Notes under the pieces: generated by a model
The model's database searches: none
Seen by the model: the letters and a program-made list of their open reading frames with translations, nothing else
What the model was told of the DNA's origin: nothing
Program-made: the position numbers and the translations under genes
Shown: positions 181-17,310 of the stretch, in pieces
Position numbering within the stretch: the first letter of the stretch is position 1
Layout of the letters: the number at the start of each line of letters is the position of its first letter
Virus record (IMG/VR): IMGVR_UViG_3300020190_000415
Location: 1 to 21,604 of that record
DNA length: 21,604 nucleotides
Direction: 5' to 3' (one strand)
Source: a virus

Positions 181-303
181 CTATTTAGTTGGTAGGTTAT
201 TTTCTTTTTGAGGCTCGGGTTTAACTTCACGATCCTCGGGGACTTTGCCCCAACCTACCGTCTTATCCCATTCTTGTTGAGTGTACTTATAATCCTGCGT
301 CAT
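181..303 (-). CDS. Small hypothetical protein, 40 aa
   Basis: An ATG at 303 opens a 40-codon frame ending in TAG at 181-183. It overlaps the end of the omega-like gene by 17 bp, and an AGGA ribosome site sits 8 nt before the start inside that gene, suggesting coupled translation. The peptide starts MTQDYKYTQQEWDKTVGWG and is charged and proline-rich toward its end (EDREVKPEPQKEN). No membrane segment or known motif is visible. It is the last gene of the bS21 operon. I do not recognise the family. The ribosome site and operon position support a real gene. Confidence 0.55.
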   Translation of the reverse strand: MTQDYKYTQQEWDKTVGWGKVPEDREVKPEPQKENNLPTK

Positions 304-514
304 CTATAATATCCTGCAATGCTTGATTGATAGGTTTATAGCCATAATAGTGGAGCTTCTCTGCTTTACGATCTAAGAAGTCTCTTCGTTTAGTAATGTC
401 TCGGGCCATGTGTGCTGCCATCAAGATCATATAATACCTGTTACCTACAGCGTTTACTGCTTTTTGCACGTCGACCCTTGGTAACTCAGGTCGGTTCTTT
501 TTGTCCTGTTGCAT
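287..514 (-). CDS. RNA polymerase omega subunit-like protein (RpoZ family)
   Basis: This 75-aa protein resembles bacterial RNA polymerase subunit omega. Residues 13-40 read PRVDVQKAVNAVGNR followed by YYMILMAAHMARDI, against the E. coli omega start ARVTVQDAVEKIGNR followed by FDLVLVAARRARQM. The hallmark G-N-R, the AA..AR helix and a later KPINQAL segment (family: K-x-T/V-x-x-AL) are in order. Omega binds the C-terminal region of beta-prime and helps assembly and ppGpp response in bacteria. A longer frame opens at 553, but I chose ATG 514 because GGAGG lies 8 nt before it and the overlap with the upstream gene falls to 29 bp. It lies in the operon bS21, 20-aa, 67-aa, omega-like, 40-aa. Whether it enters host polymerase or competes with host omega is inference. 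Confidence 0.75.
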   Translation of the reverse strand: MQQDKKNRPELPRVDVQKAVNAVGNRYYMILMAAHMARDITKRRDFLDRKAEKLHYYGYKPINQALQDIIDDAGL

Positions 515-689
515 TCCACTGTCCTCCATAATAATGTTCAAGTTTGCCTTCATTGTTAAGTCTTTGGTCTCCGTCTTGTGGAGCGTCTAACTTAACTGAC
601 CAATCGATGGCATCAAAGTTCTTATCAAATTCTTTTGTGGCTGACTTTGATAAGATGCTATCACTAGTGATGTCATTCTTTGCTACCAT
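486..689 (-). CDS. Hypothetical protein, 67 aa, acidic and polar
   Basis: The start ATG overlaps the stop of the preceding 20-aa gene as TAATG, a translational-coupling arrangement, and the end overlaps the omega-like gene. The protein is polar, with Ser/Asp-rich N-terminal residues (NDITSDSILSKS), a central acidic part, and a YYGGQWNATG segment near the C-terminus. There is no signal peptide, membrane helix or catalytic motif. I do not recognise the family. Its place between a ribosomal-protein gene and an RNA polymerase subunit-like gene makes a role in host takeover possible, but that is context only. Confidence 0.65.
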   Translation of the reverse strand: MVAKNDITSDSILSKSATKEFDKNFDAIDWSVKLDAPQDGDQRLNNEGKLEHYYGGQWNATGQKEPT

Positions 690-761: not shown

Positions 762-1019
762 TTAATATAGTTTTGGTGGTAACTTTGTAGATGCTACTTT
801 CTTAAGCCATCTCTTACGAGATTGATTCTTGGCTTTCTTACGCGCGATGCATGGTTTCTCGTACTGCATACGATCACGTATCTCTTGTAAAAGACCAGAG
901 TCTTGTACTTTGTTTCTAAACTTCCTGAAAGCCTTCTCGAACTGGCCATCAGGCACGTCTACTGCAAGGCCTTGCCTTTCGTCTGGTCTTGGTTTAAACT
1001 TTTTATTTGGTATAGCTAT
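762..1019 (-). CDS. rpsU: Ribosomal protein bS21 homologue, probable ATA start
   Basis: Small-subunit ribosomal protein bS21 helps mRNA base-pair with 16S rRNA during initiation. The body (FEKAFRKFRNKVQDSGLLQE, then YEKPCIARKKAK and a basic tail ending KLY) follows E. coli S21 (FDVALRRFKR, FYEKPTTERKRAKA, TRLY). The only canonical start is GTG at 956, which gives 64 aa, lacks a nearby ribosome site and cuts into the conserved N-terminal strand (LAVDV). Upstream, the same frame stays open to a TAG at 1035-1037. It has AAGGAG at 1027-1032 placed 7 nt before an ATA at 1019, and no ATG, GTG or TTG follows that site. I therefore place the start at ATA 1019 (85 aa), extending the N-terminus by IAIPNKKFKPRPDERQG-like residues. 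bS21 genes are known in several aquatic phages. The family call is strong; the start is an inference. Confidence 0.85.
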   Translation of the reverse strand: MAIPNKKFKPRPDERQGLAVDVPDGQFEKAFRKFRNKVQDSGLLQEIRDRMQYEKPCIARKKAKNQSRKRWLKKVASTKLPPKLY

Positions 1020-1045: not shown

Positions 1046-1074
1046 ATTATACCATAATTATTAATTAATGTACA
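1046..1074 (-). promoter_or_regulatory. Sigma70-type promoter of the bS21/omega-like operon
   Basis: On the minus strand TGTACA (1074-1069), a 17-bp spacer beginning TTAA, and TATAAT (1051-1046). Transcription would start about 10 nt before the AAGGAG of the bS21 gene. It is one of seven sites with this architecture in the window. The -35 box sits only 4 bp past the T-run of the pqqA terminator. Confidence 0.8.
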
Positions 1075-1078
1075 TAGT

Positions 1079-1110
1079 AAAAAATAAAGGGGACATTTTA
1101 AGTCCCCTTT
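1079..1110 (-). terminator. Intrinsic terminator after pqqA
   Basis: A perfect 9-bp stem (arms 1110-1102 and 1094-1086, read AAAGGGGAC and GTCCCCTTT on the minus strand) with a 7-nt loop is followed by ATTTTTT. It lies 37 nt past the pqqA stop and separates pqqA from the bS21 operon, making pqqA a one-gene transcript. Confidence 0.85.
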
Positions 1111-1146
1111 GCCGACCGAGTATCCCCAGTCCATGTACTAGAACAA

Positions 1147-1218
1147 TTACTTGTTCATTACGTACATTGTTACTTCGAAACCGAAGCGCATTTCAGTTGC
1201 AGCTGGTTTTGTCCACAT
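1147..1218 (-). CDS. pqqA: PqqA: precursor peptide of pyrroloquinoline quinone
   Basis: A 23-codon frame from ATG 1218 to TAA 1147 encodes a peptide starting [11 protein letters not shown] and containing GFEVTMY. Klebsiella PqqA is also 23 aa and reads MWKKPAFIDLR and GLEVTLY at the same positions. Glu15 and Tyr19, the two residues that PqqE crosslinks to build PQQ, are both present at identical positions. Length, N-terminal MW-K-PA, Arg11, Gly13 and ExxxY all agree, so the call is firm despite the small size. AAGGAG lies 8 nt before the ATG. The gene has its own promoter (1342-1370), a leader of roughly 115 nt, and a terminator (1079-1110). No pqqB, C, D, E or F is in the window, so maturation would depend on host enzymes. 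PQQ is the cofactor of periplasmic methanol and other alcohol or sugar dehydrogenases. Confidence 0.9.
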
Positions 1219-1250
1219 AGTAGTTCTCCTTTGTTTATAAAATATTGCGT

Positions 1251-1325
1251 TTATAAACTCATGTCAGTAGAGATATCAATAAGATAAAGGTCTACCTTGA
1301 GGCCTATATAACTTTGTACAATCAT
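1251..1325 (-). other. Short leader frame with a PqqA-like stretch, 24 aa
   Basis: In the pqqA leader an ATG at 1325 opens 24 codons ending in TAA at 1251. The peptide contains IGLKVDLY, which recalls the PqqA core GLEVTLY but with Lys in place of the essential Glu. No ribosome site precedes the ATG. It could be a decayed pqqA copy, a leader peptide, or chance. Two TTATAAAC direct repeats lie between it and pqqA. Confidence 0.2.
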
Positions 1326-1341
1326 TCAACCATACAGATAC

Positions 1342-1370
1342 ATTATATCATGACTTTGATTTAATGTACA
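1342..1370 (-). promoter_or_regulatory. Sigma70-type promoter of pqqA
   Basis: On the minus strand TGTACA (1370-1365), a 17-bp spacer beginning TTAAAT, and TATAAT (1347-1342). It has the same architecture as the promoters of bS21, MoxR, VWA, the 60-aa gene and uvsY. The implied transcript has a leader of roughly 115 nt before pqqA. I see no known riboswitch in that leader. Confidence 0.8.
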
Positions 1371-7245: not shown

Positions 7246-7274
7246 ATTATACCCTAAATATGATTTAATGTACA
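7246..7274 (-). promoter_or_regulatory. Promoter of the MoxR-type gene
   Basis: TGTACA (7274-7269), 17 bp beginning TTAAAT and ending GGG, and TATAAT (7251-7246), all on the minus strand. It lies within the 35-bp repeat shared with the promoter before the VWA gene. Confidence 0.8.
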
Positions 7275-9429: not shown

Positions 9430-9458
9430 ATTATATCAAAAAGGCTATTTAATGTACA
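9430..9458 (-). promoter_or_regulatory. Promoter of the VWA gene
   Basis: TGTACA (9458-9453), 17 bp beginning TTAAAT, and TATAAT (9435-9430) on the minus strand, about 23 nt before the VWA start codon. It shares its -35 half with the 35-bp repeat. Confidence 0.8.
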
Positions 9459-9704: not shown

Positions 9705-9733
9705 ATTATACCCTAATATCGGATTAATGTACA
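9705..9733 (-). promoter_or_regulatory. Promoter of the 60-aa gene
   Basis: TGTACA (9733-9728), 17 bp beginning TTAATC and ending GGG, and TATAAT (9710-9705) on the minus strand. The -10 region is one arm of a perfect 11-bp inverted repeat (9707-9717 with 9750-9760). Confidence 0.8.
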
Positions 9734-13217: not shown

Positions 13218-14807
13218 TTAGGAACGAATAAAAAGTAATTCTACTATTACTCCTTTAGATAATAGCTCAGAAACATACTGTTCGGTTTGCAAAATAGGAT
13301 CGGGCAATCCCGGTTGTATTGGATCTCCTTCCCAATTATTGGGTGGGTGTTTTAATAAAATCCTTACATCAGAAAATCCTAAATTAATTAATGGATCATA
13401 CACATTTTGAATCAAAGATTGTTCGGATTTTATCATAGGATTTAATTCTACTATTATGGATGATACTCTATTGTCATCTAAAGTTTTGGTCATACCTTTA
13501 ATTACAAATTCTTCATGCCCTTCCACATCCATTTTAATTACTATATTCGTAGAATACGGACATATAGATTCAGAATCAATTTGTGAGGTAATTACAGAAT
13601 ATTTTGTTCCAGATGCTCTAATTTCAAGACTCGATCCGCCCATGTTATGCGGATCATCTATTAAATTTATAACATCTCCATCTGTATTTGAACACGCAAC
13701 TTCTCTGACAGTTATCCTATTTTGCCAACCATTTGCATTAATAGATGTTTTTAATAATTTACATGTAAGCGGGTGTGCCTCAAACGCTAATACTCTAGCT
13801 CCACACATTGCAGCAGTAAATGAATGTAATCCTATATTCGCCCCAATATCAATGAATAATGTTTTATTATCGCATAGTTTAGCTATCGCTGCAGCCACAC
13901 TTGGCTCCCAAGTTTTACCGCTTGCAATCTGTCTGCTTATATAATCATCGTCATTATGTGTATAACAAAGAAAATCTTTTGATCCAATAAATGGAATAAC
14001 TCTTTTAAATATTGGGAATAGATTTATATGAACACCTTGATCATATATCCATTTGGTCCTATCTTCAATTTGTTTATCAGTTAAATCATACTGTATACCA
14101 TATCCCAAATTAAATTGGTGCTTAATCCTCTCTCGAGTAGTCTGAGTTCTATTAAATTCACGTGTTTGCCCTATATATCTCCAATGAAGCATAACGGGTT
14201 TATCTATACATTCTAATGATGGTTGATTAAATTGTGGATTCCAATAATGTTGACCTACTTGAAAATTAGTTTCTACAATAGCATTAGGATTAAATATCAT
14301 TGGCTTATCATACATATAAGGATCTTTATTGATAAGCTTGTGTATTGGATCTTCTCGTAGTCCTTTAAGTGCAGATAAGTTTGGTTGTTGATGCGTTGAA
14401 AGTCTAGCTAAACAATTTTTAAATTCATCATCTTTAATAATAATTGCTATACTAATAACTGAACTGTGTGTTATTTTATTTTCTTTCCACTCAGTTAAAG
14501 CTGAAATTATATCATTTGGGTATTTTGGGAAAAAGATTAATTCATCTGTATCTGCAATAATAACATAATCAGCATGACCGCGTGACTCTTTCCATGCCTC
14601 ATTTTTCATTTTTATATTAGTTTTATCACATAGTCTATTAGTTTCTAACTGTCTAATTTCACGACCAGCTGATTTAATAATATCAATACTGTCATCAGTG
14701 CAACCTGCATCATAAAATATAATACGATCTGCCGTTTCATAATGTTTTAAAACAACACGAACTAAATCAGAATCATTCCATATTGGCATGTACACCCAAT
14801 ATTTCAT
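13218..14807 (-). CDS. Glycosyltransferase 2-like + FkbM methyltransferase fusion
   Basis: The 529-aa protein joins two enzymes. Residues 1 to about 250 look like a GT-A glycosyltransferase: an N-terminal YWVYMPIWNDSDLV strand, DAGCTDDS (about 34-41) and the metal-binding DTD in IADTDEL (about 83-89). Residues about 300-529 form an FkbM-type SAM methyltransferase: LFIDIGANIGLHSF (about 314-327, SAM motif I), AFEAHP, and IKMDVEGHEEFVIKGM (about 420-435). FkbM enzymes O-methylate sugars. The pair probably modifies a glycan, such as a virion glycan or host surface polysaccharide. It is more AT-rich and Ile/Asn-rich than its neighbours and interrupts the usual uvsW-to-gp55 stretch, suggesting later acquisition. 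AAGGA precedes the ATG. Confidence 0.85.
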   Translation of the reverse strand: MKYWVYMPIWNDSDLVRVVLKHYETADRIIFYDAGCTDDSIDIIKSAGREIRQLETNRLCDKTNIKMKNEAWKESRGHADYVIIADTDELIFFPKYPNDIISALTEWKENKITHSSVISIAIIIKDDEFKNCLARLSTHQQPNLSALKGLREDPIHKLINKDPYMYDKPMIFNPNAIVETNFQVGQHYWNPQFNQPSLECIDKPVMLHWRYIGQTREFNRTQTTRERIKHQFNLGYGIQYDLTDKQIEDRTKWIYDQGVHINLFPIFKRVIPFIGSKDFLCYTHNDDDYISRQIASGKTWEPSVAAAIAKLCDNKTLFIDIGANIGLHSFTAAMCGARVLAFEAHPLTCKLLKTSINANGWQNRITVREVACSNTDGDVINLIDDPHNMGGSSLEIRASGTKYSVITSQIDSESICPYSTNIVIKMDVEGHEEFVIKGMTKTLDDNRVSSIIVELNPMIKSEQSLIQNVYDPLINLGFSDVRILLKHPPNNWEGDPIQPGLPDPILQTEQYVSELLSKGVIVELLFIRS

Positions 14808-17281: not shown

Positions 17282-17310
17282 ATTATACTACATAATCTAT
17301 TTATTGTACA
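17282..17310 (-). promoter_or_regulatory. Promoter of uvsY-uvsW
   Basis: TGTACA (17310-17305), a 17-bp spacer starting ATAAATAG, and TATAAT (17287-17282) on the minus strand. It restarts early/middle expression just after the late tail-protein gene. Confidence 0.8.

Follow-up and report, generated by a model that had tools for sequence, protein, structure and literature searches.

A T4-like phage, which presumably infects methanol-oxidising Methylophilaceae, carries a gene for PqqA, the 23-residue peptide precursor of the cofactor PQQ, in a transcription unit with a phage promoter, a structured leader RNA shared with host pqqA genes and a terminator of its own. Extra host-type PqqA made by the phage probably sustains PQQ supply, and hence methanol dehydrogenase and energy, until lysis. 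The DNA analysed (the window) is the whole viral record IMGVR_UViG_3300020190_000415, 21,604 bases long. Its PHROGs matches include the major head protein gp23, the head protease gp21, the late sigma factor gp55, RegA and the clamp loader gp44, and its capsid protein is nearest (62%) to that of Melnitz, a phage of OM43. Elsewhere in the window, a 529-aa ORF (13218-14807, minus strand) resembles a glycosyltransferase family in its N-terminal part and a methyltransferase family in its C-terminal part (PHROGs). The pqqA unit has the following parts, the promoter class being given with all of its copies.

1342..1370, minus strand: promoter TGTACATTAAATCAAAGTCATGATATAAT, TGTACA-17-TATAAT, belonging to a phage promoter class with six exact copies
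1046-1074, 1342-1370, 7246-7274, 9430-9458, 9705-9733 and 17282-17310, minus strand: promoter class TGTACATTAAAT...TATAAT, six exact copies
1226..1231, minus strand: ribosome binding site AAGGAG, read from the sequence
1147..1218, minus strand: pqqA ORF, 23 aa, matching Pfam and NCBIfam profiles at twice their curated cut-offs
1086..1110, minus strand: intrinsic terminator of the pqqA unit, AAAGGGGACTTAAAATGTCCCCTTTATTTTTT, a perfect terminator in sequence

A preliminary description of this DNA had taken the peptide for PqqA, and the profile searches bear this out, with 42.4 bits for PF08042 (cut-off 21.1, E 6e-11) and 40.4 bits for TIGR02107 (cut-off 20, E 2e-10). Glu15 and Tyr19, the cross-link pair of PqqA, are both present in the peptide, as had been noticed. 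A PqqA DNA pattern matches the window once and none of 100 shuffles, and no chain in the Protein Data Bank matches the peptide. The gene lies outside any pqqBCDE operon, with no PQQ gene adjoining; location in such an operon is common for pqqA, not defining, and hosts too hold many dispersed copies.

The strong ribosome site, the promoter and the terminator were all found as first described. The one-gene unit that had been proposed from them stands with two additions, namely the structured leader RNA (1308..1219) and the promoter of the next unit (1074..1046). The exact promoter motif occurs six times in the window, always on the minus strand, against 0.01 expected, and the copy at 1074..1046 opens the unit after pqqA. 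In the sister contig L036, the order regA - promoter - leader - pqqA - terminator - S21 is retained, with a terminator of its own, and the leader and ORF of pqqA are almost unchanged, while the genome pieces have 77-78% DNA identity with the window. Since order, promoter, leader, ORF and terminator are kept at this divergence, the one-gene unit is real as a sequence feature. The promoter stands at the same distance from the ATG in L036 and in a second relative, L413, and pqqA gene order is kept in both; pqqA is here a host-like gene inside a true phage genome, as is expected of an auxiliary metabolic gene.

Downstream, the pqqA unit is adjoined by a gene for a homologue of ribosomal protein S21 (762-956, minus strand; PF01165 48.9 bits against 27), which is the first recognised gene past the second TGTACA promoter (1074..1046). 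A possible RNA polymerase omega subunit is encoded at 287-553 (minus strand), with 23.8 bits for TIGR00690 against a cut-off of 23.6 and 21.0 bits for Pfam PF01192, under its cut-off of 26. This candidate is retained in L036, L413 and L356 at 64-73% identity.

The window peptide is identical, letter for letter, to 53 of 157 bacterial PqqA from the bacterial loci retrieved, many of them of Methylophilaceae, and at the DNA level the gene differs from a Methylotenera copy in 2 of 72 nt. Among the matches listed, 23 different DNA versions in phage genes encode this exact peptide, and pN/pS of phage pqqA is 0.31 at the codons left free by the search pattern, which fixed W2, K4, P5, R11, G13, E15, T17 and Y19, so that conservation at these residues is built in. 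Silent changes dominate, and phage pqqA, judged from its codons, is maintained by selection. Scans of the viral contigs covering MWTKP-type peptides and first-codon-base changes gave no match with a non-G first base in codon 15 and none with a non-T first base in codon 19, against 91 of 120 and 95 of 120, respectively, for the positive controls. Glu15 and Tyr19 are retained in every phage PqqA examined; the leader-anchored scan described below is free of the residue conservation that is built into the pattern. Two phage contigs (L358 and L384) encode a divergent PqqA, MW(V/E)KPxATELRWGFEICMYVANR, in which Thr17 is replaced by Cys and Glu15 and Tyr19 are kept.

A PqqA search of viromes had been proposed in the preliminary description; with the PqqA DNA pattern, pqqA was found in at least 120 of 2.9 million viral contigs. 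All 120 among the matches listed are ORFs of 23-25 residues that start with ATG. An SD-like ribosome site precedes 126 of 127 phage pqqA genes, isolates and the window included, and a terminator lies within 100 nt of 41 of 125 (0.9 expected). Shared genes link the contigs to several unrelated types of phage. In T4-like phages, pqqA follows regA in eleven contigs and lies elsewhere in others, and these differing places point to several separate acquisitions of the gene by such phages. In one phage contig (L069, 1445-1510, plus strand), a ROSE-type RNA thermometer lies between regA and pqqA (RF02523, 54.3 bits against 43). The region ppk - pqqA - pqqBCDE in a sequence recorded as Acinetobacter phage MD-2021a (L283, CAKLQF020000010.1) is a bacterial chromosome that looks mislabelled, and it was excluded.

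A tblastn search also located pqqA in a phage genome from spring water and in methylophages that are in culture, namely Venkman, P19250A, MEP301, MEP401, MEP402 and Melnitz. Among cultured methylophages, five groups have the gene, and carriage is claimed for these named methylophages, not for methylophages as a whole. As had been foreseen, the gene is missed by annotation: it is present without annotation in Venkman, P19250A, MEP301 and MEP402, and in Melnitz and ctXG6705 a spurious antisense ORF overlies it. Publications describing Melnitz, MEP301, MEP401/402 and Venkman make no mention of phage pqqA.

Three features lie beyond the preliminary description: an operator-like motif in other phages, the host-shared leader RNA and group I intron alleles in relatives. 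The operator-like motif, ATGA(A/T)3TC or ATGATTTTAC (full forms TAATGATTTTCATTAG and CATGAAAATCATGAG), occurs before 41 of 103 phage pqqA genes of a non-redundant set; shuffles give 1.0 (maximum 3), and of 308 other ORFs in these phage contigs 3 have it. Among 129 host pqqA genes, 48 have its core, ATGA(A/T)3TC, upstream, where 3.0 would be expected; the sites belong to the host pqqA loci L130-L274 and the phage pqqA loci L010-L129. ATGA(A/T)3TC is absent upstream of the window pqqA, where the phage promoter is used instead. A degenerate ATCAAAGTCATG within the window promoter is not claimed as an operator motif.

The leader of the window comprises the following elements.

1219..1308, minus strand: structured pqqA leader RNA (motif R1/R2), with covariation; cmsearch gives 70.6 bits with R1, of which this leader is a training member, and 67.0 bits with R2
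1291..1296, minus strand: helix P2, 5' strand GGTAGA, a covarying helix with 98.4% of cells paired
1266..1271, minus strand: helix P2, 3' strand TCTACT, which pairs with the GGTAGA strand
1233..1258, minus strand: hairpin GTTTATAAA-cgcaatat-TTTATAAAC, read from the sequence, directly before the ribosome site

Twelve aligned phage leaders share a six-pair helix with a covariation of 0.717 (0.208 in shuffled alignments), and RNAalifold on the same leaders gives an additional outer helix. The covariance model of these twelve found new matches in marine Methylophilaceae, where pqqA is present as a tandem pair and the leader stands immediately ahead of the first copy. The alignment of host and phage leaders, which was fitted to the inner helix, has two helices with 95.2% of cells paired; its covariation is 0.655 compared with 0.247 when shuffled (none of 500 reaching 0.655) and at most 0.16 when slid. 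A refined model, into which nine of the host leaders went, detected one leader in each of 17 of the 143 Methylophilaceae genomes, all 17 genomes being 1.2-1.4 Mb in size. Every one of these 17 leaders precedes pqqA and has the operator-like motif upstream. In marine host leaders, GTTTATGTT...AACATAAAC stands in place of the window hairpin at 1233..1258.

A leader pattern blind to the peptide had 109 matches in the 2.9 million viral contigs, which are partly redundant and comprise 58 distinct leader sequences. The complementary helix is present in 101, of which 88 precede a full pqqA, nine an intron-split pqqA and four a contig end, with no other gene behind any of them; all 97 phage leaders with readable sequence behind thus precede pqqA, and the eight matches without the complementary helix are the same eight without pqqA. 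In Rfam, the c-di-GMP classes included, the leader has no credible match, and nothing unusual is seen when the 199-nt region of the pqqA transcript is folded as a single sequence (z -0.46), the structure being visible through covariation only. Between the ribosome site and a conserved CUC, pairing has a mean probability of 0.18 (0.07 in controls), a weak preference, and simple sequestration of the ribosome site by this CUC was set aside as weak. From its conserved pairing and place, we read the leader as a putative cis-regulatory RNA. No report of a pqqA leader RNA was found in the open-access literature, and the leader, whose target gene is obvious, offers a concrete candidate for a cis-regulatory class not described before.

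The window represents an intron-free allele of a gene that is split in some relatives.

1178..1179, minus strand: empty intron insertion site; L413, L415 and L356 carry an intron exactly here

In 14 viral contigs, an insertion of 231-278 nt splits pqqA between the first and second bases of the Phe14 codon. Three of these introns exceed the cut-off (50) of the group I intron family of Rfam, RF00028, with 84.9, 65.3 and 65.3 bits; exon 1 ends in U and the intron ends in G. The joined exons encode a full-length PqqA with Glu15 and Tyr19 in all 12 contigs with the second exon in reach. On paper, the pqqA introns are therefore predicted to be splice-competent and to restore full PqqA. They occupy one site and comprise three or more sequence types. 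L413 and L356 share synteny with the window (regA - leader - pqqA - intron - S21 - 486 - rpoZ), and L413 has the pqqA promoter of the window. Introns are carried by L413, L415, L356, L411, L414, L412, L342, L385, L386, L389, L327 and L351. Nine leader-linked ORFs of 15-16 aa were at first read as truncated, decoy-like PqqA; their downstream exon and RF00028 matches show that they are intron-split genes. No report of an intron in pqqA was found in the open-access literature. The alleles of a 72-nt gene with and without the intron offer a clean system for studies of phage intron homing and splicing. A bolder proposal, somewhat doubtful in our eyes, is that a new riboswitch-like RNA of marine Methylophilaceae senses PQQ or a related metabolite, by which they control pqqA, and that their phages took RNA and gene together, tuning PqqA to cofactor demand, the 72-nt gene being important enough for a self-splicing group I intron of its own and among the smallest intron-split protein genes.

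The preliminary description had left it to be checked whether the host lacks or carries pqqA. All 143 Methylophilaceae genomes carry it, with a median of 4 copies (range 1-12), and in the presumed host genomes these copies are dispersed; a full-score pqqE is present in 135 of the 143. Each of the 50 larger viral contigs has exactly one pqqA, and among these 50, many of them fragments, none has PqqE over the cut-off and none has a PQQ-dependent alcohol dehydrogenase. With PqqE and several dispersed pqqA copies in the hosts, and no other PQQ genes in the phage contigs, maturation of phage PqqA most likely relies on the host, and phage pqqA would therefore add dosage. In PMC9851590, work is cited in which expression of multi-copy pqqA in a methylotroph goes up with PQQ synthesis and a cell extract turns added PqqA into PQQ. 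Extra template for host PqqB-E, as the preliminary description proposed, is the role best supported by these data, though it would require that host PqqE processes the peptide, that PQQ is raised or maintained and that the phage gains from this. The gene would be a genuine host-derived pqqA, kept by a T4-like Methylophilaceae phage as an auxiliary metabolic gene and expressed as a short transcript from the phage's own promoter, starting with a structured leader like that of host pqqA. The phage peptide would be the same substrate as the host's; in it, host PqqD/PqqE would join Glu15 to Tyr19, and PQQ would then be completed by host proteases, PqqB and PqqC. Because one PqqA is consumed per PQQ and host transcription likely falls in infection, the phage-driven copy would keep PQQ going. 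On the other side, PqqA may not be limiting, because the hosts already hold several copies of its gene.

The preliminary description had also offered the peptide as a competing substrate, which would occupy PqqD/PqqE as a decoy, lower host PQQ and shut off methanol oxidation, and the presence of pqqA without other PQQ genes in these phages would suit such a role. Yet the phage peptide is the host's own, letter for letter, and an identical substrate adds product rather than blocks its formation; no version without Glu15 or Tyr19 came to light in two targeted scans and one peptide-blind scan, and this idea is regarded as very improbable. PQQ might instead be raised for a purpose other than methanol oxidation, such as antioxidant action, signalling, release on lysis or another host PQQ enzyme. 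PQQ has redox roles besides methanol dehydrogenase, and the phages searched carry no dehydrogenase themselves, both of which would fit; all clear carriers and the nearest gene relatives, however, are methylotrophs, in which methanol dehydrogenases dominate among the PQQ enzymes, and phage populations of Lake Baikal with pqqA also encode methanol dehydrogenase (PMC7678222). A non-methanol purpose is accordingly considered unlikely.

Two further readings make the peptide secondary or idle. Strong conservation of the leader and its constant association with pqqA would fit a view in which many copies of the RNA are the active part and titrate a ligand or protein governing host pqqA. Among the first 120 phage pqqA genes listed, the majority are without this leader, counting the leaders that could be aligned, while the peptide is under purifying selection and the introns are predicted to splice so that it is restored, and an active RNA with a secondary peptide can hardly be credited. 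A neutral hitch-hiker acquired from hosts would be short, identical to host copies and close to them in DNA (2 nt), all of which is true of this gene. Neutrality is contradicted by the pN/pS value, silent changes being dominant, and is at odds with recurrence in several phage types and positions, dedicated terminators in one third of phage pqqA genes, the retention of regulatory signals and intron alleles that appear splice-competent; its probability seems very small indeed. Supply of extra PqqA for host PQQ synthesis is thus preferred.

Methanol oxidation is a major one-carbon step of coastal seas and lakes and is controlled by the supply of PQQ. If methylophages routinely bring the consumable precursor peptide, a viral control over methanol turnover has escaped notice, since pqqA is too small to annotate, even in well-studied isolates. 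Cultured host-phage pairs exist, with Venkman and Melnitz on H5P1 and MEP401/402 on FZCC0133.

Phage pqqA as a kind of gene is already known, and its breadth, the host-shared leader and the intron alleles are, as far as we are aware, new. One report of phage pqqA was found in the open-access literature: PqqA is encoded by VP_266, a T4-like phage of Lake Baikal that was assigned to Methylophilaceae, and support of methanol oxidation was proposed as its purpose (PMC7678222, 2020). VP_266 is like the window phage in being a T4-like Methylophilaceae phage with PqqA; the report differs in dealing with one assembled virus and with methanol dehydrogenase in phage, and the parts consulted describe no leader, intron, promoter or breadth (PMC7678222). 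There, P19250A is said to encode none of these genes (PMC7678222), whereas it does carry the unannotated pqqA given above. A c-di-GMP riboswitch lies beside a pqqA in Methylophaga nitratireducenticrescens GP59 (PMC12530212, Table 4). Like the phage leader, it is a cis-acting RNA beside pqqA in a methylotroph, whereas the phage leader has no Rfam match and a different conserved core. The window gene shares with bacterial PqqA, especially that of the dispersed multi-copy pqqA of Methylophilaceae, the same letters, size, Glu-x3-Tyr and stand-alone copies; it is unlike them in being phage-borne, with a phage promoter and no adjoining pqqBCDE. Cyanophage psbA is a host-like gene with a used-up product that is kept in T4-like phages and is sometimes split by a group I intron. 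Auxiliary metabolic genes of the psbA type thus resemble phage pqqA in their likeness to host genes, their consumed product, their occurrence in T4-like phages and, at times, their group I intron, while phage pqqA stands apart in that its product is a 23-residue cofactor precursor peptide encoded by a gene of 72 nt.
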